Under the pieces are notes generated by a model that made no database searches, had not been told where the DNA came from, and was given only the letters and a program-made list of their open reading frames with translations. Source: Bradyrhizobium guangxiense (GTDB taxonomy: Bacteria; Pseudomonadota; Alphaproteobacteria; Rhizobiales; Xanthobacteraceae). Taken from it: a stretch of DNA of 64,000 nt. The DNA is taken from assembly GCF_004114915.1 (NCBI RefSeq), contig NZ_CP022220.1, positions 868,001 through 932,000 of the forward strand, written 5' to 3'. The translations under genes and the position numbers were made by a program. Of the stretch, positions 4,896 to 57,451 are shown piece by piece (the first letter of the stretch is position 1; the number at the start of each line of letters is the position of its first letter).

Positions 4896-5792
4896 TCAAC
4901 TCATGGAAATCACAACAGAGCCCTTCAGCTCGTCTCCGGGTTCCAGAATCACAGTTCCAGTGTCAGCACAACCGCGAGCGAACAGGTTGAACCCGTCCGC
5001 AACGTGGCTGACGGGCTCTGCGCATAGATGTGCGGCATCAGCGGGCCGATGCAGCACAAAATGCGAAAATGCAGGATCCCCTCGCATTTCAATCCGATCA
5101 CCATTCGAGCGGTGAATAACGCAGAGCCCGCGCCATCCACTGCGATAAAGCGTCACCTCACCGGGCGGCAATGAATCTGCTGTGGGCCCGGCAGAATGGG
5201 CATCCGGCAGCGCGGCGAGATAGTCCGTCGTCACGGCCCAGTCGATCGGTGCGTCAAACTCTATGTTGTCATCGACTTGGTGCTCGAAATAGGGATGCAG
5301 GCCGATTCCACCCGGCATCGGCGTCTGCGCCTCGTTTCGAAGATTGAGACAAAATATGGCACGCGAGGGTTCAAGTTCGACCTTAAGAGTTGCGCTGAAC
5401 GCCCAAGGCCAGTCGGCGCCTCCCTTGTGCGAGTATCGCATCGTCACCTGCGATGGCGTCAGCGAGATCGTCTCCCAAGGCATCCTGTGCGCATGCCCGT
5501 GCAACGTATGCGGCAGCGCGTCGGGATGGGCCGCAAGCTCGTACCGCTTACCCTGGAAGAGAAGAACCCCATCCCTCACGCGGTTGCTATAGGGGACGAG
5601 GGGATAGATACCACCCTTGGGCCAGCGCAGTAACTGAGCGGGCTCTACCCCGGCCGGGAACGGACGCAAGACCCGTCGCGGCAAGCCGCTACCCTTGCTG
5701 CTGCACAGCTCGAGAGAGGTCACGCGTCCGCCAGCGGACGCCGAGAAGCCAAGTCGAGCCGCACCGGCCGTCAAAAGCTGGTTGGTGATCAT
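4896..5792 (-). CDS. Aldose 1-epimerase family protein
   Basis: 298 residues. The mutarotase fold is indicated by GGRVTSLEL near the N-terminus, PLVPYSNRVRDG, a LPHTLHGHAHRMPW block carrying the conserved histidines, and GIGLHPYFEHQ with the general-acid His. The C-terminal catalytic Glu would lie in HLCAEPVSHVADGFN. Such enzymes interconvert alpha and beta anomers of aldoses in the cytoplasm. It lies 58 bases downstream of an ABC transporter ATPase on the same strand and is probably the last gene of that operon. That hints that the transporter, annotated by homology as amino-acid type, may handle a sugar-like or sugar-acid ligand. No strong ribosome site precedes the ATG. Confidence 0.85.
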   Translation of the reverse strand: MITNQLLTAGAARLGFSASAGGRVTSLELCSSKGSGLPRRVLRPFPAGVEPAQLLRWPKGGIYPLVPYSNRVRDGVLLFQGKRYELAAHPDALPHTLHGHAHRMPWETISLTPSQVTMRYSHKGGADWPWAFSATLKVELEPSRAIFCLNLRNEAQTPMPGGIGLHPYFEHQVDDNIEFDAPIDWAVTTDYLAALPDAHSAGPTADSLPPGEVTLYRSGWRGLCVIHRSNGDRIEMRGDPAFSHFVLHRPADAAHLCAEPVSHVADGFNLFARGCADTGTVILEPGDELKGSVVISMS

Positions 5793-5850: not shown

Positions 5851-6585
5851 TTAATGCTCAGCTGATTCGGCGACGAACGCCGCCAGCTCGGGCGTCGCAG
5901 GCATCCGCAGGATGTCCGACGATCCCATTTCGTGCACCTTGCCATCGCGCATATAAATGACGCGGTCCGCCACCTTGCGGGCAAAGGCCATTTCATGGGT
6001 CACCAGGATCATGGTCATGCCGTCGGCCGCGAGCTGCTCCATGACACGCAACACTTCTCCCGTAAGCTGCGGGTCGAGCGCTGAAGTCACTTCATCGAAC
6101 AGCATCAACTTAGGCTCCATGGCAAGGCTGCGGGCAATGGCTACGCGCTGCTGTTGCCCGCCGGAAAGCTGTTCCGGATAGCAGTCCATCTTCTCCCGCA
6201 GCCCCACTTTGGCGATCACAGTATCCGCAATTTCGCGGGCCTGCCGCTGCTTCATGCCTTTTACCATGCGCGGGGCCAACATGATATTTTCGGCCACGGT
6301 CAGGTGCGGGAAGAGGTTATAGCTTTGAAAAACGATTCCGACATCGCGTCTCAAAGACTTCAAGTCGATGTCGTCATCATGGAGCTCGTGGCCGCAGATC
6401 AGCATCGAGCCGCCTTGGATGGTCTCCAGGCGATCCATGCAACGTAGCGCCGTGCTCTTGCCCGATCCGCTCTGGCCGATGATAGCGGCGACTTCGCCCC
6501 TGTTCACCTCAAAGGTGACACCTTTAAGGACTTCCAGCTCGCCAAAGCTCTTGCGCACGTCCTTTAATTCAACGATTGGCGACAT
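5851..6585 (-). CDS. Polar amino acid-type ABC transporter ATPase (GlnQ family)
   Basis: About 244 residues from the ATG at 6585, which has AAAGGA eight bases upstream; the longer reading to 6639 lacks this. Full ATPase signature set: Walker A GQSGSGKST, Q-loop FQSYNLFPH, signature LSGGQQQR, Walker B LMLFDEVTSALDP and H-loop VTHEM. The closest family is the PAAT group (GlnQ, HisP, ArtP). It powers uptake by the two permeases upstream, which overlap it by 17 bases. It is the fourth gene of a five-gene operon ending in the aldose 1-epimerase. Confidence 0.95.
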   Translation of the reverse strand: MSPIVELKDVRKSFGELEVLKGVTFEVNRGEVAAIIGQSGSGKSTALRCMDRLETIQGGSMLICGHELHDDDIDLKSLRRDVGIVFQSYNLFPHLTVAENIMLAPRMVKGMKQRQAREIADTVIAKVGLREKMDCYPEQLSGGQQQRVAIARSLAMEPKLMLFDEVTSALDPQLTGEVLRVMEQLAADGMTMILVTHEMAFARKVADRVIYMRDGKVHEMGSSDILRMPATPELAAFVAESAEH

Positions 6586-7216
6586 TGAGTTTCCTTTCGA
6601 GGGCTCTGCTTTGAACCGACAGCGGATAGCAGATCGCAAAGTACATCAGGGCAGCGATGCCGAAGTAGAGAAACGGCTCAAATGTTGCGTTGTTGATGAT
6701 CTTTGCGTTGTAGGAGAGCTCGGCGTATCCGACCACAAGTGAGGCGATCGATGTGTTCTTGACGATCTGGACCAAGAAGCCGACTGTCGGTGGAATGGCA
6801 ATGCGCAGAGCTTGCGGCAGGATGACAGCCCTCATGCGCTGCCAGCGCGTCAGGCCGAGGCACTCTGCGGCTTCCCATTGCGGCTTCGCCACCGCCTGAA
6901 TGCAGCCGCGCCAGATCTCGCCCAGATAGGCGCTGCTGTAAAGTGTGAGCGCGAAGGTCGCTGCCGTCAGCGGAGATAAGGAGTCGTAGCCCAAAATGCT
7001 CGGCCCGTAAAAGCACAGACCCATGAGGACGAGCAACGGAAGTCCCTGCATGATCTCGATATAGGCCGCCGCCCCGCGCGAAATCGCCCAATTCCGCGAG
7101 ATGCGTGCCAGAGCGACGATGAAGCCGGCGATGCCGCCAAACAGGAAAGTTAACAGGCTCAATACGACCGTCGCCCATAGCCCCTGGAGCAACGAGAGAA
7201 TGTAGGCGCTATTCAT
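6569..7216 (-). CDS. Polar amino acid-type ABC transporter permease
   Basis: 215 residues with about five membrane spans and the BPD-transport coupling loop, visible as EAAECLGLTRWQRMRAVILPQALR, the EAA motif of HisM/GlnP-type permeases. GGAG lies about seven bases before the ATG. It overlaps the ATPase gene by 17 bases and follows the other permease by 15, so the two are probably translated together and form a heterodimer in the inner membrane. Confidence 0.93.
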   Translation of the reverse strand: MNSAYILSLLQGLWATVVLSLLTFLFGGIAGFIVALARISRNWAISRGAAAYIEIMQGLPLLVLMGLCFYGPSILGYDSLSPLTAATFALTLYSSAYLGEIWRGCIQAVAKPQWEAAECLGLTRWQRMRAVILPQALRIAIPPTVGFLVQIVKNTSIASLVVGYAELSYNAKIINNATFEPFLYFGIAALMYFAICYPLSVQSRALERKLNVANR

Positions 7217-7231
7217 CTGCTATCTCCATGC

Positions 7232-7915
7232 TCACAGCGGGGTTCCGAGCTTGCGGCGGCGAGGAAACATCGCAAGCCCGAGGAGAGCAAACCCCCCACG
7301 TACCAGTATGGCGAGACCTAGATAGATGCCGCCGAGCACGACGAAGATTTCGAAATTGCGATAAGTCTCGCTCTGGATACGGTTAGAGATCCCGAATAGC
7401 TCCTCAACGCCAACCGAGGACACGATGCTCGAGGCCAGCATCAACAGAACATACTGGCTCGACAGCGCCGGATAGACGCGCTCCAGCGCTGGCCGAATAA
7501 TCACATGCAGATAGGTTTGGGTGCGCGACAGTCCAAGGCAGGTCGCCGCCTCAAGCTGGCCGCGATGGATCGATTCAATGCCCGCACGCACGATCTCAGT
7601 CGTATAAGCTCCGATATTGACCGTCAGCGCGATGGTCGCACCAACCAGGATGGGCAACCGAATTCCCATGCTCGCAATGCCAAAGATTAGGAAGTAGCAC
7701 TGCACGAGCAGCGGCGTATTGCGGATGAACTCCACATACAAGGAGACGATCCAACGGGCCCAGGTTGGCCCGCCGGTCCGGACCACGGCGCAGGCACCAC
7801 CTAAAAGGATGCCGAACACCGTGCAGAATAAAGTGAGCCGTAGCGTCGTCCAGATACCCTCCAACAGGAGCGGCCAATAAGCCAGCACGGCTGCGAAGTC
7901 GAAATTGTAAGTCAT
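7232..7915 (-). CDS. Polar amino acid-type ABC transporter permease
   Basis: 227 residues, about five membrane spans, with the EAA coupling motif in LEAATCLGLSRTQTYLHVIIRPALER. Sequence features mark it as the second PAAT-type permease, partner of the gene at 6569. No good Shine-Dalgarno is seen before the ATG. It starts 34 bases after the stop of the receptor gene, in the usual receptor-permease-permease-ATPase order. Confidence 0.93.
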   Translation of the reverse strand: MTYNFDFAAVLAYWPLLLEGIWTTLRLTLFCTVFGILLGGACAVVRTGGPTWARWIVSLYVEFIRNTPLLVQCYFLIFGIASMGIRLPILVGATIALTVNIGAYTTEIVRAGIESIHRGQLEAATCLGLSRTQTYLHVIIRPALERVYPALSSQYVLLMLASSIVSSVGVEELFGISNRIQSETYRNFEIFVVLGGIYLGLAILVRGGFALLGLAMFPRRRKLGTPL

Positions 7916-7949
7916 AGGACTTTGCTCGTTTCAAGGGCCGTAGGCCATG

Positions 7950-8747
7950 TCATTGAGACGCGGCGATGACTTCCTGGGGCAGGTCGGCGCCCTGAAACTT
8001 CTTGAAGATCGCTTGGAGTTTTCCGTTGGCGATGTTCTTCTTCACCCAGCTGTCGACCCATTCCTTCAGATCCGTATCCTCCTTACGCATGCCAACACCC
8101 ATAGGCGCGGTCCGAAGCGGCAGCTTCAGCTCAAGCTCTTTGGCCGGGTTCTTCTTATTGATCAGGTCGACAAGGGTCGGCACCTGCGCGACCAAGTCAA
8201 GCTGGTTGGACACGACCGCCGTCATGGTCGTTGCTTCATCCTCAAAGCGCACGATTTCCGCATCTCGCGGGGCCGCCGCAGTCACATCCGCATCGTTCGT
8301 CGTGCCGCGCGTGACGGCAATGCGCTTTCCCGACAAATCAGCGAACGTCTTGATCTGCATGCTCTTCGGTGCTGCCACATAGGACGTCGCTCCAGAATAT
8401 GGCAGCGAGAACGCGATCAGCTTCTTGCGCTCATCAGTGATCGACAAGGCCGAAAGGACTGCGTCTGCGCGATGCGACATCAGGAAAGGAATGCGATTGG
8501 CGCTGTTCGTCCCCACGATCTCCATCTTCACGCCGAGATCGGCAGCCAAGAGCTTAGCTGTTTCGACTTCCGAGCCAGTGGGATTGAGGTCTTCGTCCTT
8601 GAATGCCCAGGGAGGGACACTGAGATCGACGGCGATGCGAATGATACCCGCGGACTTGATCTTCTCAAGCGTCCCGGCTGTCGCTGTTTGCCCCAAGAGG
8701 GCCAGCGAGACAACAGCAGCTGTCAAAACTCTAGCAAGAGTCTTCAT
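7950..8747 (-). CDS. ABC transporter periplasmic receptor, family 3 solute-binding protein
   Basis: About 265 residues from the ATG at 8747, chosen because GGGAGG sits seven bases upstream and the leader MKTLARVLTAAVVSLALLG ends at an A-X-A type site (TATAG). The mature protein follows the SBP_bac_3 pattern: GIIRIAVDLSVPPWAFKDE, GSEVETAKLLAADLGVKMEIV, LSALSITDERKKLIAFS and an IAVTRGTTNDAD hinge block. These receptors usually bind amino acids or opines. The linked aldose epimerase leaves room for another ligand. First gene of the operon. Confidence 0.92.
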   Translation of the reverse strand: MKTLARVLTAAVVSLALLGQTATAGTLEKIKSAGIIRIAVDLSVPPWAFKDEDLNPTGSEVETAKLLAADLGVKMEIVGTNSANRIPFLMSHRADAVLSALSITDERKKLIAFSLPYSGATSYVAAPKSMQIKTFADLSGKRIAVTRGTTNDADVTAAAPRDAEIVRFEDEATTMTAVVSNQLDLVAQVPTLVDLINKKNPAKELELKLPLRTAPMGVGMRKEDTDLKEWVDSWVKKNIANGKLQAIFKKFQGADLPQEVIAASQ

Positions 8748-9101
8748 TTTCAATCCTCCCGATGGCAATTGACTGTTCGAATTAGAGCTACGCCCAGATT
8801 TTCGGCTAGAAGAGGTCGATTCGGACTCGGTATTCGGAGCGCATCCGCTTCCGCCCCGGCGTTATTCTCGTCGCGGCGGTGCCAGGCAGAGCGACCACTC
8901 AGGGAGCAGGCGGCGATCGATTCCTTTGGCCCGACCGCCTCGATGGCGTTCGCAAGTGTCTCCTCCAGAGTGCCAAGTATTGTTGTTATGATTGCGCGAA
9001 ACGTTAGCGAGCGCGGCTTTCAACGTGAAGCCCGTCTTTCATTGTCCGCGAGAGATCGTCTCACTTCGTGAGACTGTCGCCGTTAGTGAGCGGTCTGATG
9101 C
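8748..9101. other. Intergenic region upstream of the ABC operon
   Basis: No gene recognised. It must hold the promoter of the leftward ABC operon, but no convincing -35/-10 pair was found. A GTCTCAC-TTC-GTGAGAC hairpin at 9058-9074 lies 28 bases past the end of the shikimate-dehydrogenase-like gene and could end that operon, although no T-run follows on the minus strand. Confidence 0.4.
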
Positions 9102-9896
9102 TCAATGACCAGAGGTCATGAAGGAGAACAGAAGCGCGATCTGTCCATCCAGCATGTGCGTGCCGTCTCGCGTGGCGCAGCCAATCTTGGCTGCCTCCGA
9201 CAGGAGCCTTGTCGGGACCGGATCGGTGATAACGTCGGCAACGATCATGTGCGGCGCAAGTTGAGCGGGATCGACTGGTAGCGGGTCGCCGTCCCGCAAG
9301 CCTGCCGACGTCGCATTGACGACAATATCGCAATCGCGAGGAACGGCAGTATCGATGGAGACCTTGCCTGGATATGCCTTACTAAGCCTGTCAAACAGGC
9401 TGTTCTGGTTTGACGCGTCGAGGTCGTGGAAGGTCAACCGGCGGGCGCCTTCTTCGAGCATGGAGACGCCGATCGAGGAGCCTGCACCGCCCGCGCCGAC
9501 CATGAACACGTTTTTGCCGGCGATGGCATGGCCCGCCTTCTTCAATCCGGCAGTCAGACCGGCACCGTCGAAATTGTCGCCGAGCCAGCGGCCGTCCTGT
9601 TCTCGTCGCATGGCGTTGATCGCCCCGAGGACCTTGGCGCGATCAGACAGGCGGTCGCAATGCGCGATCGCCCCGAATTTGTGTGGCAGCGTGATAAGAA
9701 TACTGTCGATGTTGAGCATTGCTTTGAGGGCCGCCAGAGCCGTGTCAAGATTGCCTCTCTCGACCTGCAGCGGCACCAGCACACCGTCATATCCGGCATC
9801 CTCCATTCGCTTGGTCAGCCAGCCCGGTGCCAGCACCTGCGAAATAGGCGAGCCTATTAGCGCATGAACGCGTGTCTTTCCGGTCAGTGAGGTCAT
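9102..9896 (-). CDS. Shikimate/quinate dehydrogenase-like protein (AroE family)
   Basis: 264 residues, usual AroE length. The substrate domain shows IGSPISQVLAPGWLTKRM, the ITLPHK loop with the catalytic Lys, and an Asp in GDNFDGAG. The nucleotide domain has the GAGGAGSSIG dinucleotide loop and NATSAGLRDGDPLP. Family enzymes reduce 3-dehydroshikimate or oxidise quinate/shikimate with NAD(P). The substrate end departs from biosynthetic AroE (GDNFDGAG in place of the common GxNTDGxG). As last gene of a catabolic-looking operon it more likely acts in degradation of a cyclic polyol acid or related compound; that role is inferred. A separate biosynthetic aroE would be expected elsewhere. Confidence 0.82.
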   Translation of the reverse strand: MTSLTGKTRVHALIGSPISQVLAPGWLTKRMEDAGYDGVLVPLQVERGNLDTALAALKAMLNIDSILITLPHKFGAIAHCDRLSDRAKVLGAINAMRREQDGRWLGDNFDGAGLTAGLKKAGHAIAGKNVFMVGAGGAGSSIGVSMLEEGARRLTFHDLDASNQNSLFDRLSKAYPGKVSIDTAVPRDCDIVVNATSAGLRDGDPLPVDPAQLAPHMIVADVITDPVPTRLLSEAAKIGCATRDGTHMLDGQIALLFSFMTSGH

Positions 9897-9913: not shown

Positions 9914-10387
9914 TCAGGACAATTTGGGCGGAGGCGAGGGCGGCGCCATGGCATAGCCCCTGGCCTCATAGTCGAAGTCATGCAGCTTGTTGACTGTCTC
10001 GGCCTTGTTGACGGGAGAGGCATAGTAGGCCCGGATCTCGGCAATCCGTGTGACGTCGTCGTTGAAGACGTACCATTCATCGCCGCGCAGCACCTCACCA
10101 AGGGCCGTCTTCCAATGGGTCCATTCGATCACCGCTTCGTGGCCGTCCGAGCTGGCCAGAACCTTCTCAATGGTCCAGCGCGATCCCATCGTTTTGACAC
10201 ACCAGACCCAGCCGTCGGCTATTGCCTGAGCGCCGCGCCAGGGCGCACCAGGCAGGCCGGGTGGGAAATAGTGGACAGCATTGCTCGTGAAGCAGTCCAG
10301 CAGCGCCTGGTGATCGGCATCGTTGCAGGCTTGAAAGTATCGGCGGATCAAGGCCTCCGCCTGCGCGGCTTTCGTGAGCGCACCCAT
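9914..10387 (-). CDS. SnoaL/NTF2-like small protein
   Basis: 157 residues with the NTF2-like cone-fold pattern: a helical start KAAQAEALIRRYFQACNDAD, FTSNAVHYFPPG, GAQAIADGW, then strands around EWTHWKTALGEVLRGDEWYVFND and EIRAYYASP. This superfamily includes delta-5-3-ketosteroid isomerases, SnoaL polyketide cyclases and non-catalytic binding proteins. The ATG has GGAG seven bases upstream and follows the RraA-like stop by four bases, so it is tightly operonic. It may isomerise or bind an intermediate of the pathway encoded around it; no catalytic residue can be assigned with certainty. Confidence 0.75.
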   Translation of the reverse strand: MGALTKAAQAEALIRRYFQACNDADHQALLDCFTSNAVHYFPPGLPGAPWRGAQAIADGWVWCVKTMGSRWTIEKVLASSDGHEAVIEWTHWKTALGEVLRGDEWYVFNDDVTRIAEIRAYYASPVNKAETVNKLHDFDYEARGYAMAPPSPPPKLS

Positions 10388-10391
10388 CGCT

Positions 10392-11120
10392 TTACTCCGC
10401 CGCTCGCCGGGCTCGCCATTCCGCGTATTCCTTCAGCGTTGCCTCGTTCGGCGGGTAGGTGCCCCAAAGAGGCGCGCCAGCATCGATCTTGGTGAATAGA
10501 AATCTCTCGCGCAGCTCCTGCTCATGAGACTCCTCCGCCACCTCCTCGGCGATGGCACGTGGGATGACGACGACGCCATCGCTGTCCCCGACGATGATGT
10601 CGCCGGGGTAAACGGCAACATCGGCGCAGCCGATTGGCAATTGCATGTCAACCGCGCGATGATAGGCAGGGCGCGTCGAGGCCGTGTTGGCCCTGCAGTA
10701 AGCGGGAAACGCCATTTTTGAGATTTCTGTCCCGTCGCGGAATGCGCCGTCGGTAATGGCTGCCGCAACGCCCTTGCGCATCATGCGCGTCATCAACATG
10801 TTGCCGGCCGATGCGGCACGCGGGTCGTTGCGGCTGTCGATCATCAGGACTTGGCCTGCACCAATCGCCTCCACGGCCTCCCACTGCATATTGTCCTCAC
10901 CCCGCTTGCGGAGATCAGAAAGATCCCAGTCCTTGTCTTCCCGCGAGGGAATGAAGCGCAAGGTGAAAGCCTCCCCGGCAAACGCACCAGCGCTCGGATT
11001 GAGCGGCGTGATCCCAACCAGGAATTGCTGACGATAGTTGCGCTTGAAGAGCTGCGTGGTCAGCGTCGCTGTCGAGCAGGCCTTCAGCTTTTCGAGGGTT
11101 TGGGAAGCAATCGGAGCCAT
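10392..11120 (-). CDS. RraA-like / HMG aldolase family protein
   Basis: 242 residues. The RraA-like beta-propeller-free swivelling fold is shown by AGNMLMTRMMRKGVAAAITDGAFRDG, with the Arg-Asp pair of class II HMG/CHA aldolases, and PGDIIVGDSDGVVVIPRAIAEEVA near the C-terminus. Relatives are 4-hydroxy-4-methyl-2-oxoglutarate aldolases or oxaloacetate decarboxylases, while true RraA inhibits RNase E and lacks the Arg-Asp pair. Because that pair is present and the neighbours are catabolic, an aldolase or decarboxylase is favoured. GGAGG lies nine bases before the ATG. Confidence 0.82.
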   Translation of the reverse strand: MAPIASQTLEKLKACSTATLTTQLFKRNYRQQFLVGITPLNPSAGAFAGEAFTLRFIPSREDKDWDLSDLRKRGEDNMQWEAVEAIGAGQVLMIDSRNDPRAASAGNMLMTRMMRKGVAAAITDGAFRDGTEISKMAFPAYCRANTASTRPAYHRAVDMQLPIGCADVAVYPGDIIVGDSDGVVVIPRAIAEEVAEESHEQELRERFLFTKIDAGAPLWGTYPPNEATLKEYAEWRARRAAE

Positions 11121-11258
11121 GCGTATCTACCTCCAAGAACGGAATCTAAACCAGCGCAAGCAGTGCAATGCTTGCCTTCAGGCATCACCATAGCGGCAGC
11201 AGTGCTCGGCGGAAGGCCTATCAAGCTCGCAGCGAGTGCGCCGTCTCACATGTTGAGA

Positions 11259-12365
11259 TCAGGTGCGGGGAGCGTAGCGCTTGAGGACATCGAGATCTGG
11301 TTCAAAGCCGATGCCGATGCGATCAGATGCGCTGACACCCCCCTTCCCCGGCTTCGGTGTGCTCGCGAGCCACACTTCAGGGTCGACGAACAGGAACTCG
11401 ATCAGCGTCTTCTCCTGCATCAAAGGCAGCATCGCCAGGGTCGCAAGATATCCCGGCCCGAAGTAAGGCGTATGTGGCATGACGCTCTTACCGTGTCGCT
11501 CGCATGCGGCCAAGATCTTGACGAATTCGGAGATCCCGCCGACTTTTGTCATACTCGGCTGTGGATAGGTAACAGCGTTGATGATCCGCATGAAATCAAA
11601 GGCCGTGCTGGCGTTCTCACCGCTGCCAACGGGGATTGCGGCCTTCTCAATCTCCTCCATACTCTTGTAGTCGTCGGGCGGGAATACCGGCTCCTCCACC
11701 CACAAGGTGTTGCAGGCGCGGAACGTTTCTCGCAAAGCGATCGTCTCCTGCATGGACCAGGCGCAATTGGCGTCAACCATCAGCGCGACACCGGGCCCGA
11801 TGACCTCGCGCGCGTGCCTGATTACATCCGGGGCGATCTCGTGAAGCTTGATGTGCCGGTAGCCGCGCTCGAGCGCCCGCTTGCATTGCTCAGCGACGAG
11901 GTCCTTGTCGCCATACCTGACGAGGCTCGCATAGGCCGGCCGGTGCGTCGGCGCATTCGCCCGGAAAAGCCGCCATAGCGGCACGCCCTGCCGTTTCGCC
12001 TTCAAGTCCCACAGCGCGATGTCGACCCCTGACAGCGCGAACATGGTTATGCCGTAGCGTCCAAAGAGATGAAGTTTCTTTTGCACCTCCAGGTTCCAGG
12101 CAGCGATATCGTCGATGGCTGCCTCGGTCACAAACGGCGCGATCATGTGATCGACGGCCGCGCGCACCGCCTCCAAGCAGAAATAGGCAAAGGCATCGCC
12201 CCAGCCGACATGCCCATCCTCATCTTCGATACGAATCAGCACCATGTCGAGGCGATGCCAGCGGGACGGCGTGCCGCCCGTGCCCGGGCCGCCATCGGCG
12301 AACGGAATGCGCACCGGAAAGGTTTGCAGTGAGATGATCTTGGGTACGGTGTTGCTTTGGGGCAT
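11259..12365 (-). CDS. Enolase-superfamily dehydratase/racemase (MR/MLE type) with a KxH motif
   Basis: About 368 residues from the ATG at 12365. A TTG at 12386 overlapping the upstream stop is an alternative that would give translational coupling. Metal ligands are visible as Asp in MVDANCAW, Glu in WVEEPVFP and Glu in GSGENAS, with the general base His in MPHTPYFGPG. The strand-2 acid/base motif reads IKLHE, so KxH rather than the usual KxK of mandelate racemase or muconate cycloisomerase. The family abstracts a proton alpha to a carboxylate. Context (aldolase, dehydrogenase, IclR sensor) suggests an acid-sugar or cyclic acid dehydratase; the exact substrate is unknown. Confidence 0.85.
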   Translation of the reverse strand: MPQSNTVPKIISLQTFPVRIPFADGGPGTGGTPSRWHRLDMVLIRIEDEDGHVGWGDAFAYFCLEAVRAAVDHMIAPFVTEAAIDDIAAWNLEVQKKLHLFGRYGITMFALSGVDIALWDLKAKRQGVPLWRLFRANAPTHRPAYASLVRYGDKDLVAEQCKRALERGYRHIKLHEIAPDVIRHAREVIGPGVALMVDANCAWSMQETIALRETFRACNTLWVEEPVFPPDDYKSMEEIEKAAIPVGSGENASTAFDFMRIINAVTYPQPSMTKVGGISEFVKILAACERHGKSVMPHTPYFGPGYLATLAMLPLMQEKTLIEFLFVDPEVWLASTPKPGKGGVSASDRIGIGFEPDLDVLKRYAPRT

Positions 12366-12382
12366 AATGCGAGTGGCCTGGG

Positions 12383-14035
12383 TCAAAGCCTTGCGACTGG
12401 ATCGGCGAGGCCGCGCTCGCCGACATCGATCGACAGGAGGTGTCCCGAAAGAGGAGCATTGGCGAGGCTTTCGCGCGACAGGCCGGTGCGGGCACTGGTC
12501 ACGAAGAGCTCGGACAGGGAGGCTCCTCCAAACGCGATACCGGTTGGTCTTGGCACGGGGAGGGCGACGGTTCGCTCAATCTCTCCGCTCTCATTAAGCT
12601 TCACGACGCTCCAGCCGTCCGACAATCCAACCCATGGGTTAAATTGCTCGTCGACGGCGAGGGCGCAAGGAGCGCCCGCGACCTTCGGAATATCGGCGAA
12701 TTTTCGCTTTCGCGCCGCCTTTCGCTCAAGCAGATAGACGCATTGACGCGATGGCTCCGTCGCGAACAGGCCGGCATCACCGCAAAAGGCGATGTCGCTC
12801 ACCTGGCCTTGCACTTCGAACACCGGTTCCATCCCCGATTGCCGTCGCCACGGTCCAACCAGGCTTATGTTGGCCTCGGCGCTGTAGGCTGCTGCCCAGA
12901 TCTCACCAGCCTCCGAGACGCGCAGCACTTTGAAGGAAATACCCGGCTTTCCTTCAATGCGCTCCTGGCCGCCCGATAAATTGTCGATCACGATGTCATG
13001 GCCAACTGAATAGGCGACGCCGCCCTCGACAAGGCACAGCGAGTTGATGCCCTCAGAGAGCGCCTGCAGCGAGACGGTGAAGGGATGCCCGCCGTCGGCG
13101 CGGATAGCAGGCGCCAACAGGTCGGCCCAAACCAAGTTCTGCGCGCGCGCATCCCAGCGCGGCGCCGCGCCCACAAAGGCTGTGCTCTTCGTCCAGACCT
13201 TGTAATTTCCCGGATCATGCCGAGCGCTCTTGATGGCAGGTGCGAGCAGGCTCGAAATCCGTCTTGCGACATCAACGAGCTCTTGCCCTAATCGTTCGGC
13301 GCGCTCGGCGGTGATGCGAAAAGTCGGGCCGGCCACGCTGATGGCCGCAAGCGGTTTGCCGGCGGGATCGAGAATAGCCGTTCCGACGCAGCGGGTGCCG
13401 AGAACTATCTCTTCGTCATCGATCGCATAGCCGCGCGCACGGACGATGGCCAGATGTGCCTTCAACTGCTCGCCGTCACAAATCGTCTTCTCGGTAAACT
13501 TGGCAAGCCCGTCGCGGACCACCAAGTCGAGTTGCGCGTCGGAGAGATGAGCGAGGATCGCCTTGCCCTGGCTTGTGCAATGCATCGGTTTAAGCGCGCC
13601 GAGCCTCGCATTGGATCGCTCGGAATGTGCGCTCTCGAAGCGGCCGAGCGAGAGCACGTGGTGACCGTCTTGAACCGCGAGATAGGCGGTCTCACCGGTC
13701 AAATCGCGTAAGCGCCTCAACTCTACGGACGCAATTGACGCAAGGTCAGACGACGACCAAGCATTCTGTGCAAGATCGAGAAAGTTGAAACCAAGCGTGT
13801 AGGCCTGGGTGCGCGGATCTGCCCGGATCAGTCCACGCGAGATCAGCGCCGCAAGGATGCGATACAGGGTCGCCCTGGGGATGCCCGTCTGGTCCGCAAG
13901 ACGCGCCTGGTCGAGGACGCCGGGTGATCTGCCGATCAGCTCGAGAATATCGCAGGCCTTTCCCAGAAGCGCCGTCCCGGCGACATTCTTAGGATGGATC
14001 AGCTCCGGCGACCACTCGACTTCGTGTTCAGACAT
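12383..14035 (-). CDS. IclR-family regulator fused to an SMP-30/gluconolactonase-like beta-propeller
   Basis: 550 residues, about twice normal IclR length. Residues 20-85 are the IclR winged helix (GKACDILELIG, QTGIPRATLYRILAALISRGLI). Residues 95-265 are the IclR effector domain (TAYLAVQDGHHVLSLGR, LGALKPMHCTSQGKAILA, YAIDDEEIVLGTRCVGTAI). From about residue 275 the chain continues with propeller repeats typical of SMP-30/LRE proteins: VWTKSTAFVGAAPRWDARAQNLVWAD, GINSLCLVEGGVAYS, GEIWAAAYSAEANISL and PRPTGIAFGGASLSELFVTSAR. Reading is continuous with no stop, so this is a true fusion. It heads the operon and likely senses the pathway substrate, perhaps a lactone, through either domain. The SMP-30 part may still be a lactonase. 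Confidence 0.88.
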   Translation of the reverse strand: MSEHEVEWSPELIHPKNVAGTALLGKACDILELIGRSPGVLDQARLADQTGIPRATLYRILAALISRGLIRADPRTQAYTLGFNFLDLAQNAWSSSDLASIASVELRRLRDLTGETAYLAVQDGHHVLSLGRFESAHSERSNARLGALKPMHCTSQGKAILAHLSDAQLDLVVRDGLAKFTEKTICDGEQLKAHLAIVRARGYAIDDEEIVLGTRCVGTAILDPAGKPLAAISVAGPTFRITAERAERLGQELVDVARRISSLLAPAIKSARHDPGNYKVWTKSTAFVGAAPRWDARAQNLVWADLLAPAIRADGGHPFTVSLQALSEGINSLCLVEGGVAYSVGHDIVIDNLSGGQERIEGKPGISFKVLRVSEAGEIWAAAYSAEANISLVGPWRRQSGMEPVFEVQGQVSDIAFCGDAGLFATEPSRQCVYLLERKAARKRKFADIPKVAGAPCALAVDEQFNPWVGLSDGWSVVKLNESGEIERTVALPVPRPTGIAFGGASLSELFVTSARTGLSRESLANAPLSGHLLSIDVGERGLADPVARL

Positions 14036-14225
14036 GGCCCAATTTTAGGTTCACGAGACGAGACCATCCAGCCTGTCGCAGGCTTGGTGCGCCTCATCCA
14101 GCCGGGTTGCCCACATGGTGAGACCCGGAGGGGCAGATTCCGAGCCAGTGAAGCGAGGGGTTATGTGCTTGGTTTCAAAAAGGCATTTGTCTTGTGGGAA
14201 CGTCGCATTGATATAACTCCTTGTG

Positions 14226-14252
14226 CAAAATCTTGACACTTGCAAGGTTTTG
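14226..14252 (+). promoter_or_regulatory. Inverted repeat at the abiEi promoter
   Basis: CAAAATCTTG, a seven-base spacer and CAAGGTTTTG form an inverted repeat matching at 9 of 10 positions just before the antitoxin start. AbiEi-type antitoxins are known to repress their own operon by binding inverted repeats at the promoter, so this is a good operator candidate. TTGACA (14233-14238) and TATCAT (14253-14258) are present but only 14 bases apart, so the exact promoter is unclear. Confidence 0.5.
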
Positions 14253-14256
14253 TATC

Positions 14257-14916
14257 ATGCGGGTTTCCATGAGGAAGCAACCACAACGCCAGAGGGATAG
14301 GGCGATCTCGCTTCTTCAGAAGCGGGGCATGATGCGCCTTTCTGAATTTCTCCAGGAAGGGATCACGGCCGCAACCATTTCCCGAATGGAACAGAAGGGC
14401 ACGCTCAATCAGCTCAGCCGCGGCCTTTACCAGCTACCCGATGCACTGCTCGACAGTAACCACTCGCTCGCAGTTGCTGCGAAACTCATTCGAAACGGCG
14501 TCATCTGTTACGAGTCTGCGCTCGCCTTCCATGAGCTGACAGACCGCATCCCGCCCTATGTATGGATGGCGATCGGTCCGCGCGACTGGCGGCCCAAGAT
14601 TGCGCGGCCTCGCATTCAAATTACGCGCTTTGGTCCCAAGGAGTTTGACAAGGGGATCAAGCATTACACCATCGAAGGGATCTCGGTACCGATCTACACA
14701 CCGGCCAAAACTATCGTCGATCTCTTCAAGAGCGGCCAACGTCAAAAAGCCTTCTACAACGTCCCCACAGGCCTTGCGCACGCCACGCAAGCGATGAAAG
14801 ACGCGATCAGACTGCGCAAAGCGACACCCTCCGAAATCGCAAAATACGCCGCCGAAGCCGGCATATGGGACAAAATCGTTCAGCCGCGCCTTGAGACGCT
14901 GACCTTGAATGCGTAG
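14257..14916 (+). CDS. abiEi: AbiEi family antitoxin/transcriptional regulator (type IV TA)
   Basis: 219 residues from the ATG at 14257 (AAGG nine bases upstream); 14269 is also possible. The N-terminal winged helix is seen as AISLLQKRGMMRLSEFLQEGITAATISRM. It is followed by the strongly conserved AbiEi block: LSRGLYQLPDA, GVICYESALAFHELTDRIPPYVWMAIGPRDWRP, then IQITRFGP and VPIYTPAKTIVDLF. AbiEi represses the abiE operon and neutralises AbiEii, a nucleotidyltransferase toxin, without binding it. Here the gene looks intact, but the toxin that overlaps its 3' end is broken, so this is an orphan antitoxin. Composition is less GC-rich than the flanking genes, fitting acquired DNA. Confidence 0.87.
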   Translation: MRVSMRKQPQRQRDRAISLLQKRGMMRLSEFLQEGITAATISRMEQKGTLNQLSRGLYQLPDALLDSNHSLAVAAKLIRNGVICYESALAFHELTDRIPPYVWMAIGPRDWRPKIARPRIQITRFGPKEFDKGIKHYTIEGISVPIYTPAKTIVDLFKSGQRQKAFYNVPTGLAHATQAMKDAIRLRKATPSEIAKYAAEAGIWDKIVQPRLETLTLNA

Positions 14917-15084
14917 GCCGCTGACGAATGTCGGAGCATCCATCCGTGGCCGCCTGCTCAATCTTGCAAACAGCGTAACGAGCCTTTCGATCTCTTGCTC
15001 ACACAGTATGCGTTCGAACGGCTGCTCTACAGGCGAAATCTGCGGATCCCTGCTGTTGATTCCGACGTAGACCGAGTTAGCTAA
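14909..15084 (+). pseudogene. AbiEii toxin remnant, frameshifted and truncated
   Basis: The ATG at 14909 overlaps the antitoxin stop by eight bases, the classic abiE arrangement. Frame one reads MRRPLTNVGASIRGRLLNLA, the normal AbiEii start. Near 14975-14985 the frame shifts and the family sequence continues as EPFDLLLTQYAFERLLYRRN, then stops at 15084. The nucleotidyltransferase core that should follow (about 250 residues) is missing. The toxin cannot be functional. Confidence 0.8.
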
Positions 15085-15111
15085 GGAAAGCGCCTTGGTT
15101 TAGTTAGGGTT

Positions 15112-15136
15112 TGCCCGATGGTGGGCCGGGCATTTT
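15112..15136 (+). terminator. Possible terminator of the abiE operon
   Basis: TGCCCG, a nine-base loop and CGGGCA are followed directly by TTTT, placed 28 bases past the end of the toxin remnant and just beyond the 3' end of the convergent Fic gene. The stem is short (6 bp), so strength is uncertain. Confidence 0.45.
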
Positions 15137-15725
15137 ATGATCGCGCGAAAGCGATGAGGGGCCCGAAATCATGGTTGTCGGCAGCCTGAAGCGCTGCAAT
15201 GTAGGCCCTGCGTGCGGTGCCGGCTGTCTGCAAGCCGGCGGCGCCCCATGTAAAGCGCCGGCCCCCAAGCTGCACGATCAACAAGTCAGCAGCCAATCGT
15301 GACCAGCGACCGTTGCCGTTTGGGAACGGATGTACGGATACGAGGCGGTGATGGAAGCGAACCGCAAGTTCGTCCGGTGGATAGGTGTTGTTCTCAATCC
15401 AATACCTTGCGTCGTCGAGCACCTGATGCAGCGAAATTTCGATCAGATGTGGCGCGACACCAAGATTGCGCTCCGTCGTTCGAAATTTTCCAGCCCAGCG
15501 CCAGACGCGTTCGAACATGCGCCGATGCAAACTCTTGAGAAAACTTTCCCGCGTCGGAACCTTGCGGCGGCCAAACGCCCAGCGGTTTGCCGTCGCGATG
15601 TTCTGCTGCTCCAGTTCGTTCAACTCGCTACGTAAGGTAATGTGCGTTGGGATAAGATCTTCGCGCTCCTGAGGGGTCAGCGGTGTCGCGTGATCGTCGG
15701 CGGCATGCAGATCAGTCTCAGTCAT
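15135..15725 (-). CDS. Mobile mystery protein B, Fic-domain protein
   Basis: 196 residues. The Fic core motif HPFPNGNGR lies at about residues 131-139, matching HxFx(D/N)GNGR of enzymes that transfer AMP or other nucleotides to target proteins. Upstream is the helical Fic segment with FERVWRWAGKFRTTERNLGVAPHLIEI. The position normally acidic in the Fic motif is Asn, which may change metal binding or transfer chemistry. Its start overlaps the stop of the HTH gene upstream by four bases. The pair is the known mobile mystery protein A/B couple found on genomic islands, which behaves like a toxin-antitoxin module by layout. The role of the pair is not established. Confidence 0.9.
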   Translation of the reverse strand: MTETDLHAADDHATPLTPQEREDLIPTHITLRSELNELEQQNIATANRWAFGRRKVPTRESFLKSLHRRMFERVWRWAGKFRTTERNLGVAPHLIEISLHQVLDDARYWIENNTYPPDELAVRFHHRLVSVHPFPNGNGRWSRLAADLLIVQLGGRRFTWGAAGLQTAGTARRAYIAALQAADNHDFGPLIAFARS

Positions 15726-16174
15726 TCGTCGTCCCAGAGGCGCGCGGGGCGTTTCAACAAATCCTCGATCGCTTGTTCCCGAAGCGCGCGGGCAGCCTGA
15801 TTGTCCTCCCCCGCTTGGTCCTCGAGCCGCATCGTTTGCTCGATAGCTCGTGATTGCCGCTCGGCGACCTCAGCAGCTCGCTTGGTTACAACTTCTGCGA
15901 GGGGGCGGTCGGGTACAAGCACATAGACCAGCCTGCAGCCGAGGGCCTCGGCCGCGCGTTGAAGCGTATTGAGGGTTACGCTGCCGCCTTGCTCGGATTT
16001 TTCGAGTTCCACGATGCGTGGCTGCGAAACCCCCAGCCTCTTGGCATATTGGGCGGTGGTCATGCCGAGGGCGTCGCGGATCGCGCGAATCCAGCCCTTG
16101 GGAGGGCGCTGGGAGTGCGAGAGCGCTCGGAGCGCGGCAAAGCGGCTGTCGAGATGCCGGATAGCGTCTTTCAT
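15722..16174 (-). CDS. Mobile mystery protein A, XRE-type HTH protein
   Basis: 150 residues. The N-terminal half has a lambda-repressor-like HTH: GWIRAIRDALGMTTAQYAKRLGVSQPRIVELEKSEQGG, followed by VTLNTLQRAAEALGCRLVYVLVP. The C-terminal half is charged and helical (ERQSRAIEQTMRLEDQAGEDNQAARALREQ), probably for dimer or partner contact. It precedes and overlaps the Fic gene and likely represses the pair by binding the AT-rich repeats upstream. It is the presumed antitoxin or regulator of the Fic partner. Confidence 0.88.
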   Translation of the reverse strand: MKDAIRHLDSRFAALRALSHSQRPPKGWIRAIRDALGMTTAQYAKRLGVSQPRIVELEKSEQGGSVTLNTLQRAAEALGCRLVYVLVPDRPLAEVVTKRAAEVAERQSRAIEQTMRLEDQAGEDNQAARALREQAIEDLLKRPARLWDDE

Positions 16175-17460: not shown

Positions 17461-18813
17461 ATGTCAGGGAGCAGAGTGGCGCGCTTCCAATTTCGTTTCG
17501 TGATCTTGGCACTCATCACGATGTTGCTGGCACTAAGCAGCGGCGATCGAGCGACGCTCTCGATCGCGGGCCCCAATATGTCCAAGGCTCTTGGCATCAG
17601 CCCGGTCGAACTCGGCTGGATGTTTTCCGCTTTCGCATGGGCCTACGTGCTGGCTCAGGTGCCCGCTGGCTGGATCACGGACAAGCTCGGCGCAAAGCTC
17701 AGCATCCTGGTCGGATTGATCCTCTGGTCGGTCGTCACGTTCCTGATGAGCGGCGTGGCCTGGCTCGCCTATCCGTTTCTGGCCATGCTCGCCTTGCGCT
17801 TCCTGCTTGGCGTGTTCGAATCTCCAGTCGGGCCGGCTGCTGGGCGCATCATCGCTGCCTGGTTTCCATCGAGCGAGCGCGGCATTGCCGGCGCGATCTT
17901 CAACAGCGCGCAATATGTCTCCCTCGTGATCTTCACGCCTTTGATGGGCTATCTAGATCATCGCTTCGGCTGGGAGCACATCTTCACTGTGATGGGCGTC
18001 CTAGGGCTCGCATTCTCCGCCCTCTGGTTCGTCACGTACTATCCGCCTGCTCAACATCCAAAAGTCGCGCCAGCTGAACTCGATCACATTCGCTCTGGTG
18101 GCGGCCTTGTCGACCTCGGCGCAGCTCCTGTGCGCTCCGCCGAGCGCGGTCCAAAATGGTCGGATCTGGCCGAAGTCTTCCGCAGCCGCATGCTCGTCGG
18201 CATCTTCCTCGCGCAGTACGGCATTACATCCATCACCTGGTTCTTCGTCTCCTGGTTTCCGAGCTATCTCGTCAAGGCCCGCGGCTTTTCGGTACTCGAC
18301 GCAAGTTTAGTGGCGACCATCCCGGCCATCGCCGGCTTCGTTGGCGGCGTCATGACCGGCTTCTTCTCAGATTGGCTTCTTCGCAGGACCGGATCGCTAA
18401 GCACCGCGAGGAAGACGCCGATTACGATTGGTCTGTTGATGACGATGCTGATCATCGGCTGCAATTACACAGACTCCACCACGTTGATCCTAGTCCTGAT
18501 GAGCGCCGCCTTTTTCGGCAAGGGCTTTGGATCGCTAGGTTGGACCGTAGTGGCCGATACCGCGCCAAAAGAAGTCATCGGGCTGACCGGCGGCGTCTTC
18601 AACGCGATCGGTAATACTGCCGGCATCACGACCCCGGTTGCGATCGGCTACATCCTTGCAGCGACCGGATCCTTCAATGGCGCGCTGCTCTATGTCGGCC
18701 TCCATGGCCTACTCGCCATTATCAGCTACTGGGTCATCGTGGGCCCGATTCAACGTGCCGTCATTCAGGAAAGGCCCGAGCTTCCTCGCGCTGCGCCAAT
18801 ACCAGCCGAATAG
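17461..18813 (+). CDS. MFS transporter, anion:cation symporter (ACS) family
   Basis: 450 residues with about 12 membrane spans. GGGAGG lies five bases before the ATG. Motifs of the ACS family, which takes up glucarate, galactonate, tartrate and phthalate, are visible: SSGDRATLSIAGPNMSKALGIS, GWMFSAFAWAYVLAQVPAGWITDKLG, FLLGVFESPVGPAAGRIIAAWFP and ERGIAGAIFNSAQYVSL. It is followed 46 bases later by an L-talarate/galactarate dehydratase, so it most likely imports a C6 aldarate. Confidence 0.9.
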   Translation: MSGSRVARFQFRFVILALITMLLALSSGDRATLSIAGPNMSKALGISPVELGWMFSAFAWAYVLAQVPAGWITDKLGAKLSILVGLILWSVVTFLMSGVAWLAYPFLAMLALRFLLGVFESPVGPAAGRIIAAWFPSSERGIAGAIFNSAQYVSLVIFTPLMGYLDHRFGWEHIFTVMGVLGLAFSALWFVTYYPPAQHPKVAPAELDHIRSGGGLVDLGAAPVRSAERGPKWSDLAEVFRSRMLVGIFLAQYGITSITWFFVSWFPSYLVKARGFSVLDASLVATIPAIAGFVGGVMTGFFSDWLLRRTGSLSTARKTPITIGLLMTMLIIGCNYTDSTTLILVLMSAAFFGKGFGSLGWTVVADTAPKEVIGLTGGVFNAIGNTAGITTPVAIGYILAATGSFNGALLYVGLHGLLAIISYWVIVGPIQRAVIQERPELPRAAPIPAE

Positions 18814-18859
18814 ACGCCGGGCCGCAGAAGAGTATTCAACGACGAAAGAGGACGAACAG

Positions 18860-20056
18860 ATGAACTTTATGCAAAACACGACACGCATCATTGCCAATCC
18901 GCTAGCTGCGGGACTTGCGCCCGGCGAAGCCACCACCGATCGAATCGCATGGGTCAAGCTATCGCTGGTTTTCCTTCCACTTGCCGCACCGATCAGCGAC
19001 GCGAAGGTGCTTACCGGCCGCCAAAAGCCGCTCACGGAGATCGCGTTCCTGTTCGCGGAGATCGAAACCGAGCAGGGCCATAGTGGCATCGGCTATAGCT
19101 ATTCGAAGCGCGCGGGAGGGCCCGGGCAGTTCGCTCATGCCAAGGAAATTGCCGGTGAACTTATAGGTGAGGATCCCAATGACATCGCGCGCATCTGGGA
19201 CAAGCTGGTCTGGGCCGGCGCTTCCGTCGGGCGTAGTGGACTGTCAACCCAGGCAATTGCCGCCTTTGACATTGCGTTGTGGGATCTCAAGGCCAAGCGA
19301 GCGAAGCTGCCGCTGGCCAAATTGCTCGGCGCCCACCGAGATTCGGTTCGCTGCTACAACACATCCGGCGGCTATCTCTCCATGCCCATCGAGGAGGTCA
19401 AGGAGCGCGTCTCGATGGCGCTCGAAAAGGGCATCGGCGCCATCAAGCTCAAAGTCGGCCAGCCCGACCCGATGGTTGATCTCGCCCGCATCGAGGCAGT
19501 GCGCAAACATATTGGCGACGTACCGCTGGCGATCGATGCCAATCAGCAATGGGACCGCACGACTGCACTGAGGTTTGGTCGCATTGCCGAGCAGTTCAGC
19601 CTGACCTGGATCGAAGAGCCGCTGGATGCTTACGATTACGAAGGGCATGCCGCGCTCGCCAAGGAGCTTGCAACCCCGATCGCCACGGGTGAGATGCTAA
19701 CAAGCGTCGATGAACATTACGAGCTGATCCGGCACAATTCGGTCGACTTCATTCAGCCAGACGCCCCCCGCGTCGGGGGCATCACCCCCTTCCTGAAGAT
19801 CCTCGCGCTTGCCGACCATAAGAAGCTGCAGCTCGCTCCCCATTACTGCATGGAGATCCACCTTCATCTGACGGCGGCTTACGGCCGCGAGCCCTGGGTC
19901 GAGCACTTCGAGTGGTCGGAAGCCATGTTCAACGAGAAACTCCATGTCGTGAATGGACGCATGATCGTGCCAAACCGACCGGGCCTCGGCTTCAGCCTCT
20001 CGGATCAGGCTCGGGCATGGACTCGCGCCACTCACGAAGCCGGAAAGCGGCCCTAA
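18860..20056 (+). CDS. L-talarate/galactarate dehydratase (enolase superfamily)
   Basis: 398 residues from the ATG at 18860, with AGAGGA seven bases upstream; the frame continues upstream into the MFS gene but that part is spurious. It closely follows the Salmonella TalrD/GalrD pattern as I recall it: WVKLSLVFLPLAAPISDAKV, TGRQKPLTEIAF, GYSYSKRAGGPGQFAHAKEI and ASVGRSGLSTQAI. The KxK acid/base pair is near residues 196-198 (IKLKVGQ), metal ligands in IDANQQW, IEEPLDAYDYEGH and ATGEML, and the catalytic His near residue 328 in LAPHYCMEIHLHL. It dehydrates galactarate or talarate to 5-keto-4-deoxy-glucarate. Preceded by an aldarate-type MFS importer. Confidence 0.9.
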   Translation: MNFMQNTTRIIANPLAAGLAPGEATTDRIAWVKLSLVFLPLAAPISDAKVLTGRQKPLTEIAFLFAEIETEQGHSGIGYSYSKRAGGPGQFAHAKEIAGELIGEDPNDIARIWDKLVWAGASVGRSGLSTQAIAAFDIALWDLKAKRAKLPLAKLLGAHRDSVRCYNTSGGYLSMPIEEVKERVSMALEKGIGAIKLKVGQPDPMVDLARIEAVRKHIGDVPLAIDANQQWDRTTALRFGRIAEQFSLTWIEEPLDAYDYEGHAALAKELATPIATGEMLTSVDEHYELIRHNSVDFIQPDAPRVGGITPFLKILALADHKKLQLAPHYCMEIHLHLTAAYGREPWVEHFEWSEAMFNEKLHVVNGRMIVPNRPGLGFSLSDQARAWTRATHEAGKRP

Positions 20057-20063
20057 TAAACAG

Positions 20064-20096
20064 AAGGCTGGTCCGGCCCCGCCGGCCCAGCCTTTT
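20064..20096 (+). terminator. Rho-independent terminator after the talarate dehydratase gene
   Basis: AAGGCTGGTCCGGC and GCCGGCCCAGCCTT pair over 14 positions with one mismatch around a CCC loop; TTTT follows. It lies eight bases past the stop and may partly separate the lactonase gene from the dehydratase operon. Confidence 0.75.
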
Positions 20097-20139
20097 GAGG
20101 CCGAGTAGACTTAGCAGCACGTTACGAGGAGTTGAACGC

Positions 20140-21390: not shown

Positions 21391-21473
21391 GCATGCAGCT
21401 CTGCACGACGCGCTCGCGGGAGCTCTCGCACGAGCGGGCGCCTTATGTAGGCGAACGAACGAGCTTTGCCAGC

Positions 21474-22769: not shown

Positions 22770-22778
22770 TGGGGGGCT

Positions 22779-23855: not shown

Positions 23856-23882
23856 GAGAGATATCCTTCCTCTTCCGTATGA

Positions 23883-25175: not shown

Positions 25176-25277
25176 CTTGGGCCTCCTCGTTTTTCGGCTG
25201 GCGCCCCGGCTGGCAGCCATGCCTTTTATCTACGGCCAGCCTAGAAGGAAGAGACGGCGTCACTCAATACGCCCTTA

Positions 25278-57195: not shown

Positions 57196-57451
57196 CACGG
57201 TTCGAATGGTTCCGAAGAAACTATCCAAAAAAGGGCCGAAGAGGACATAAGTGACCAATGGATCAACCGAAACGTTCACATAACCCAACTTAACTCCCCA
57301 AGTCGATTCTCAACGGGCGAGGTCCCTGGCAACGGTCGGAAAACCAAAAGCGGAAAAAACCCAGCTGCGGTCGAGCGGGGTCGCCGCTTGCTTGGTCAAT
57401 GCCAAACTAAGCCGCTGTCGGCGTCTCAAATGATTGGACATCCCGGCGCAG

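Follow-up and report, generated by a model that had tools for sequence, protein, structure and literature searches.

Introduction

Regulators that use an enzyme fold as their effector module include MocR/PdxR, in which a GntR domain is joined to an aminotransferase-like domain, and the ROK repressors, which carry a kinase fold. Here we describe a gene of Bradyrhizobium guangxiense that encodes an IclR-type regulator fused to a propeller of the SMP-30/gluconolactonase kind (SGL), located in a stretch of 64,000 nucleotides (contig NZ_CP022220.1, positions 868,001 to 932,000; hereafter, the window). MocR/PdxR and ROK proteins combine another DNA-binding family with another enzyme fold, whereas the fusion protein also retains the IclR effector domain.

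The regulatory half resembles the IclR/AllR/BhcR branch, whose members likewise consist of a helix-turn-helix (HTH) domain and an effector domain; the fusion protein differs from them by an extra propeller of 275 residues. According to PMC11323563, five residues (Gly160, Ala161, Asp212, Ser239, and Ser241 in E. coli IclR numbering) bind the oxygens of glyoxylate or pyruvate. The metal ligands of SMP-30 are Glu18, Asn154, and Asp204, and its substrate is bound by Asn103 and Arg101 (PMC3551927). No description of an IclR protein with SMP-30 or a fused beta-propeller was found in the literature searched, outside which most subscription journals lie. Within that literature, the papers that mention both IclR and gluconolactonase are, judging by their titles, genome papers. 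The architecture itself is already in databases, in some sources under the names 'IclR family regulator/sugar lactone lactonase YvrE' or 'SMP-30/gluconolactonase/LRE family protein'. To this, the present analysis adds the finding that catalytic residues have been lost across the aligned family, along with a rewired IclR pocket, a predicted operator, and a recurring putative regulon.

Results

The fusion gene is intact

The IclR-SMP30 fusion gene (12383..14035, minus strand) starts with an ATG at 14035 and encodes 550 amino acids. No stop or frameshift lies between the domains, and the plus strand of the same interval is interrupted by stops. Pfam domains were found at residues 24-74 (HTH_IclR, 44.5 bits against a cut-off of 22), 91-261 (IclR_C, 135.1 bits against a cut-off of 24), and 439-516 (SGL). 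In an AlphaFold2 model compared by VIA-align, a six-bladed SMP-30 fold spans approximately residues 275-550 and is connected to the IclR effector domain by a linker at approximately 266-275. The best NCBIfam match was BhcR, whose score of 198.5 bits is below the NF045644 equivalog cut-off of 350, and in its effector half the protein is similar to AllR and IclR of E. coli.

A sequence-only reading of this DNA had described one uninterrupted frame holding an IclR protein and a propeller, and this description was borne out. The DNA also occurs, without a base difference, in the complete plasmid NZ_CP030054.1 of Bradyrhizobium guangzhouense. Since this plasmid was recorded separately and homologues carry the same domains, a sequencing artefact is very unlikely as the source of the frame. 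RefSeq places the start of the identical gene in NZ_CP030054.1 at residue 127 (12379-13653 of locus L107; 1,275 bp, 424 amino acids), by which the HTH is lost. A Sinorhizobium americanum homologue is annotated at almost full length (1,650 bp), and the 550-residue frame of the NZ_CP030054.1 gene is intact.

The propeller lacks the metal ligands of SMP-30

To assign ligand positions, we used a profile alignment with standalone SGL proteins (probability 100), because a keep-length alignment misplaced three of the eight SGL proteins of the same genome (L004, L006, and L008). Glu18, Asn154, Asp204, Asn103, and Arg101 of SMP-30 correspond to Ala290, Ser413, Cys457, Lys369, and Ser367 of the fusion protein, respectively. 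The absence of Glu18, Asn154, Asp204, and Asn103 distinguishes it from SMP-30/regucalcin, gluconolactonase, and the xylonolactonase of Caulobacter. The three metal ligands, a check of which the sequence-only reading had proposed, were counted in 158 fusion rows, made up of 38 loci, 119 of the listed homologues, and the window. The metal-binding Glu was present in 0/158, the Asn in 3/157, and the Asp in 0/157. In the same genome, the five standalone SGL proteins that could be aligned at these positions retain all three ligands. Five fusions beyond the 158 (P0121-P0125) have Ala or Asp, Thr or Asn, and Thr, Arg, Cys, or Ser at the three positions, and none has the full set; P0121 and P0123 (Martelella) carry Asp in place of Glu18 and lack the other metal ligands. 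On the counts across the fusion rows, we rejected an active lactonase; the earlier suggestion that the regulator could cleave a lactone is not supported. With other residues in place of the ligands of the catalytic metal, the propeller is likely a dead lactonase that serves as a sensor instead of an enzyme.

Trp303, Asp305, Gly474, and Trp475 were conserved in 157/157 fusion rows and Arg516 in 153/157. The charged propeller residues conserved at 90% or more were Asp305, Arg444, Asp462, and Arg516, of which Asp305, Asp462, and Arg516 also occur in ordinary SMP-30 proteins. Mean identity to the window was 0.60-0.63 across the IclR half. In the propeller, it was 0.37, 0.23, and 0.31 over the first blades, the latter two values belonging to blades 2 and 3, and 0.50 and 0.61 over the last blades. 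We calculated dN/dS for 112 pairs that passed the filters (L043 and L049 were unused) and used only the seven with IclR dN < 0.1. In these seven listed pairs, propeller dN/dS was 0.075-0.41, exceeding that of the IclR half in six. The remaining 105 pairs, with propeller values up to 1.15, were distant, and their dS was saturated or GC-skewed. The invariant residues and the low dN/dS in near pairs indicate that the propeller domain is not junk.

The IclR effector pocket is altered in fusion proteins

We read the pocket columns from an alignment to E. coli IclR. Gly160 is replaced by Ser in 144/158 fusion rows, Ala161 by Gln in 157/158, and Ser241 by Ala in 152/158; the changes at Gly160 and Ser241 depart from the set of glyoxylate oxygen-binding residues (Gly160, Asp212, Ser239, and Ser241) by which the glyoxylate-responsive BhcR was judged. 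Ser239 is retained in 157/158 rows, and the Asp212 column holds Asp (116) or Glu (42). The hydrophobic patch has become polar, with Met146 changed to Ser in 149/158 rows and Leu154 to Lys in 154/158; Lys149 and Gln156 of the fusion protein are near-invariant. In 26 IclR-only relatives, the residue at the Ala161 position is Val (23), Leu (2), or Ile (1); at the Leu154 position, 24 of these rows have Asn (10), Gly (7), Ala (5), Asp (1), or Arg (1). We considered glyoxylate as the effector, with BhcR, IclR, and AllR as the nearest relatives, and rejected it, as three of the five pocket residues differ. The pocket suggests an acidic or polar effector larger than glyoxylate. Nothing on such residue changes in IclR pockets was found in the literature searched.

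A palindrome recurs upstream of fusion genes

We compared 37 upstream regions (the window and 36 loci; L025 was omitted as a near-copy and L062 as short), which were set by the match start, annotated start codons being used in the window alone. A common 17-bp palindrome with the consensus GTYYCA-N5-TGRRAC was present in 36 of the 37 regions, the exception being L028. Its total score was 641, compared with 289 ± 13 for 25 block shuffles from the same seeds. Cross-training is the fairer test because the shuffle seeds came from real sequences. A matrix from 23 beta- and gammaproteobacterial loci found a site of at least 10.2 bits upstream in 13 of 14 alphaproteobacterial loci including the window, and this site was the top of the whole locus in nine of the 14. 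In the reverse direction, training on alphaproteobacterial loci gave a site of at least 8.0 in 23/23.

With a matrix trained without the window, the top three sites of the 64 kb were the predicted operators A, B, and C, all on the minus strand; 100 shuffles gave a mean of 0.14 such hits and a maximum of one. Operator A (GTCTCACCATGTGGGCA, 14108..14124; score 16.3, second) lies 73-89 bp upstream of the fusion ATG and precedes the fusion gene and the gene directly downstream of it, which encodes a mandelate racemase/muconate lactonizing (enolase) superfamily enzyme (MR/MLE). Operator B (ATCTCAACATGTGAGAC, 11243..11259; score 19.7, best) overlaps the last base of the MR/MLE stop codon, in the gap between the MR/MLE and RraA-like genes that precedes the RraA-like, SnoaL-like, and AroE-like genes. 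Operator C (GTCTCACGAAGTGAGAC, 9058..9074; score 15.9, third) is upstream of the ABC transporter genes. A search of the window for the consensus with one mismatch was not above chance by number (17 matches, 21.6 expected), so the operator claim rests on the weighted matrix. A fourth palindrome match of 14.4 bits was observed at 57423-57439, in a stretch containing no open reading frame of 150 amino acids or more.

The palindrome was rejected as a feature specific to fusions. Since it also occurs upstream of IclR-only relatives, 22/40 of which score at least 12 bits there, the DNA specificity probably predates the fusion, and a broader branch of IclR regulators may share the palindrome as its operator. 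That roughly half of the IclR-only relatives examined have such a palindrome upstream is a further likeness to the IclR/AllR/BhcR branch; examples are L065 (9887) and L096 (9997).

Distribution and origin of the fusion

A protein search yielded 609 relatives at E ≤ 1e-10 (7,998 candidates scored). Among the 120 homologues listed, IclR_C and SGL were present in 120/120 and the IclR HTH in 119/120, P0040 being the exception; the domain order noticed in the sequence-only reading thus recurs in other genomes. The two parts are not always split in homologues: the fused form is the rule in the fusion clade.

We collected the 80 best loci from GTDB genomes, of which 38 matched the fusion across both halves and 40 in the IclR half only, with one broken (L052) and one truncated (L071) locus. 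Of these, 40 loci (the 38, L052, and L071) derive from the fusion; they come from alpha-, beta-, and gammaproteobacteria, and in 36 of them the frame runs uninterrupted across the IclR and propeller parts. In L052 (10001-10692, Bradyrhizobium neotropicale), the fusion gene is broken by an internal stop and a frame change, and the remainder was not found; in L071 (10001-10435, a Pseudomonas), the match stops after about residue 164. L049 (9163-10734, a contig of a metagenome-assembled genome) has an in-frame stop beyond which the match continues, and the frame of L062 (9893-11344) lacks the start of the HTH half.

In a tree of IclR halves, the window and the 38 fusions lie on one side of a branch with support of 100/99, opposite 26 of the 40 IclR-only rows. 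Because all fusions group in this way, a single origin of the fusion is the simplest reading. Its distribution is sparse: it was found in 2/59 other genomes of the genus (E ≤ 1e-90), in 16 of 72,556 plasmid records (E ≤ 1e-80), and in at least 1/398 genomes of the phylum, namely its own genome only (E ≤ 1e-80; three candidates per genome scored among the rows). A propeller-only query, covering proteins of about 302-962 amino acids and leaving shorter standalone SGL proteins outside its range, retrieved 46 proteins, comprising 41 fusions and five standalone SGL proteins of 302-308 amino acids with 27-39% identity. No second IclR-SGL fusion was found in the same genome; a 566-residue frame at C1:4866415 was rejected as a paralogue, as it consists of SGL and a C-terminal extension without IclR. 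Pseudomonas sp. T1-3-2 and Pantoea sp. Ap-967 have two fusion genes in two loci each (L038/L056 and L045/L050).

The gene cluster and its conservation

All genes of the cluster are on the minus strand. The MR/MLE gene (11259..12365) has an open frame extending to 12386, and its RefSeq start in the identical plasmid, 12365, places it within 17 bp of the fusion gene; the enzyme reached no NCBIfam equivalog cut-off. It is followed by genes for an RraA-like protein (10392..11120; aldolase/RraA fold, above the cut-off of NCBIfam subfamily PRK08245), a SnoaL/NTF2-like protein (9914..10387), an AroE/shikimate-dehydrogenase-like protein (9102..9896), an amino-acid-type (family 3) ABC transporter consisting of a binding protein, two permeases, and an ATPase (5851..8768), and an aldose-1-epimerase (mutarotase)-like protein (4896..5792). 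As had been proposed, the fusion gene is the first gene of a putative acid-sugar cluster. The accompanying proposal that it heads an operon holds for the adjacent MR/MLE gene; since predicted operators sit in the gaps, the cluster probably forms three transcription units rather than one.

We counted neighbours by tblastn (E ≤ 1e-25, half of the query covered) because clustering of open reading frames chose some wrong frames in high-GC loci. The 38 fusion loci were compared with 41 controls (the 40 IclR-only loci and L071); some contigs end near the gene, and absences of neighbours are therefore upper bounds. The neighbours are conserved: the RraA-like gene was found in 29/38 fusion loci and 0/41 controls and the SnoaL-like gene in 28/38 and 0/41, so that no neighbour accompanies the fusion more constantly than this pair (9914-11120 in the window). 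In 20 of the 29 loci, the RraA-like gene lies within 500 bp upstream of the fusion gene in divergent orientation; in the window, the two genes share a strand and the RraA-like gene is the downstream one. We know of no pathway role for the pair, and none was found for this gene set in the literature searched. MR/MLE genes followed (21/38 vs 1/41), along with genes for an aldehyde dehydrogenase of the L037 type (20/38 vs 0/41), a mutarotase and a major facilitator superfamily (MFS) transporter (each 16/38 vs 0/41), a uronate-dehydrogenase-like (UDH-like) protein (15/38 vs 0/41), a galactarate-dehydratase-like protein (9/38 vs 0/41), an alpha-ketoglutaric-semialdehyde-dehydrogenase-like protein of the L026 type (4/38 vs 1/41), and an AroE-like protein (3/38 vs 0/41).

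Uronate dehydrogenases are among the nearest solved structures to the UDH-like protein of L037, and the L026 aldehyde dehydrogenase is nearest to the alpha-ketoglutaric semialdehyde type, below the cut-off. In the examples scanned, no hexuronate or aldarate pathway gene exceeded an NCBIfam equivalog cut-off, and L025, the locus nearest to the window, gave no match to UDH-like or aldehyde dehydrogenase proteins. The recurring neighbours suggest a pathway that oxidizes an acid, with uronic and sugar acids as candidate substrates, and a lactone stage is plausible.

A second acid-sugar gene set was observed at 17461-25220 of the window, encoding an MFS transporter, an MR/MLE enzyme, a separate beta-propeller lactonase family protein, a glycerate kinase, a tartrate dehydrogenase, and another MFS transporter. 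Between the two sets, at 14221-16174, lie genes for an AbiEi-type antitoxin and a 'mobile mystery protein' A/B pair.

Discussion

On balance, we favor the view that this protein is an IclR-type regulator in which a propeller devoid of SMP-30 ligands is a second, non-enzymatic sensing module, and that it controls its own sugar-acid cluster through the three GTYYCA-N5-TGRRAC sites. The IclR half would bind the three palindromes, which are conserved sites, as a dimer or tetramer, and a sugar-acid intermediate of the pathway would occupy the rewired pocket with its near-invariant Lys149 and Gln156. The dead propeller would bind a lactone or acid of the pathway uncleaved and signal to the DNA-binding half, tuning the response. 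Between the turnover and the second sensor offered in the sequence-only reading, the second sensor is the better of the two.

Several observations weigh against this view. The relative placement of the two domains in the AlphaFold2 model is uncertain (pTM 0.53), and among the five fusions outside the 158, Asp takes the place of Glu18 in two, while one keeps Asn at the position of Asn154. Within the flanks covered, the RraA-like gene is missing from 9/38 fusion loci and the SnoaL-like gene from 10/38. The matrix seeds were picked after inspection of the real sequences, and shuffles from the same seeds favor the real set. Across the 8.2-Mb genome, a strict version of the pattern has seven occurrences, including two in the window, compared with three for a reversed control, and the palindrome is not restricted to fusions. 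Finally, the weak conservation of blades 2 and 3 and the strong conservation of the last blades would fit a docking or assembly role equally well.

Such a role is the main rival, though in our estimate an unlikely one: the propeller would bind no small ligand and would act as an assembly or partner-docking module, controlling oligomerization or contacting RNA polymerase or an enzyme, in a regulator with a single sensor. Beta-propellers frequently bind proteins, and conservation is focused in the C-terminal blades (residues 438-545, 0.50-0.61), not in those that formerly held Asn103 and Asn154. The activity of IclR depends on its dimer or tetramer state (PMC11323563). On the other hand, the invariant Trp475 corresponds in the alignment to Gly222 of SMP30, a position close to Tyr219 of the pocket (PMC3551927), as if the pocket had been rebuilt and not abandoned, and relatives of this fold bind sugars and lactones.

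It is highly improbable that the propeller is still a lactonase working through another metal site or a metal-free mechanism, with the regulator turning over its own inducer. The model does retain the SMP-30 fold, and a lactone intermediate is plausible given the UDH-like gene in 15 of the 38 fusion loci and the proximity of the L037 protein to uronate dehydrogenase structures. Against this, Glu and Asp are replaced in every row (158 and 157, respectively) and Asn in all but three of 157, the two outlying fusions with Asp at the Glu18 position lack the remaining ligands, and the conserved charged residues Asp305, Asp462, and Arg516 are shared with ordinary SMP-30 proteins. We give equally little credence to the idea that the propeller is a leftover of the gene fusion that is decaying and no longer has a function. 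Damaged or shortened copies do account for four of the 40 fusion-derived loci (the propeller is lost from L052 and L071, a stop interrupts L049, and the start of the HTH half is missing from L062), and divergence is faster in the first blades than in the IclR half; however, one origin followed by an unbroken frame in 36/40 loci across three proteobacterial classes, the invariant residues, and the low dN/dS in near pairs speak against decay.

Beyond the preferred view of a second sensing module, we tentatively raise a more specific possibility, that of a new class of one-component regulators. In these, a lactonase acquired by fusion would have lost its enzymatic activity and been retained to sense lactones. 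Two sensors would then serve one pathway, the IclR pocket for the sugar acid and the pseudo-lactonase for the lactone. The fusion protein could seed biosensors for lactones or sugar acids. The predicted operators and recurring neighbours make up a putative regulon, undescribed in the literature searched, that is open to direct testing and may aid the assignment of substrates to RraA-like, SnoaL-like, and enolase-superfamily enzymes. If the proposal is true, this family would illustrate the conversion of an enzyme fold into a receptor within a regulator fusion, its single origin and its lost residues being readable in the sequence.
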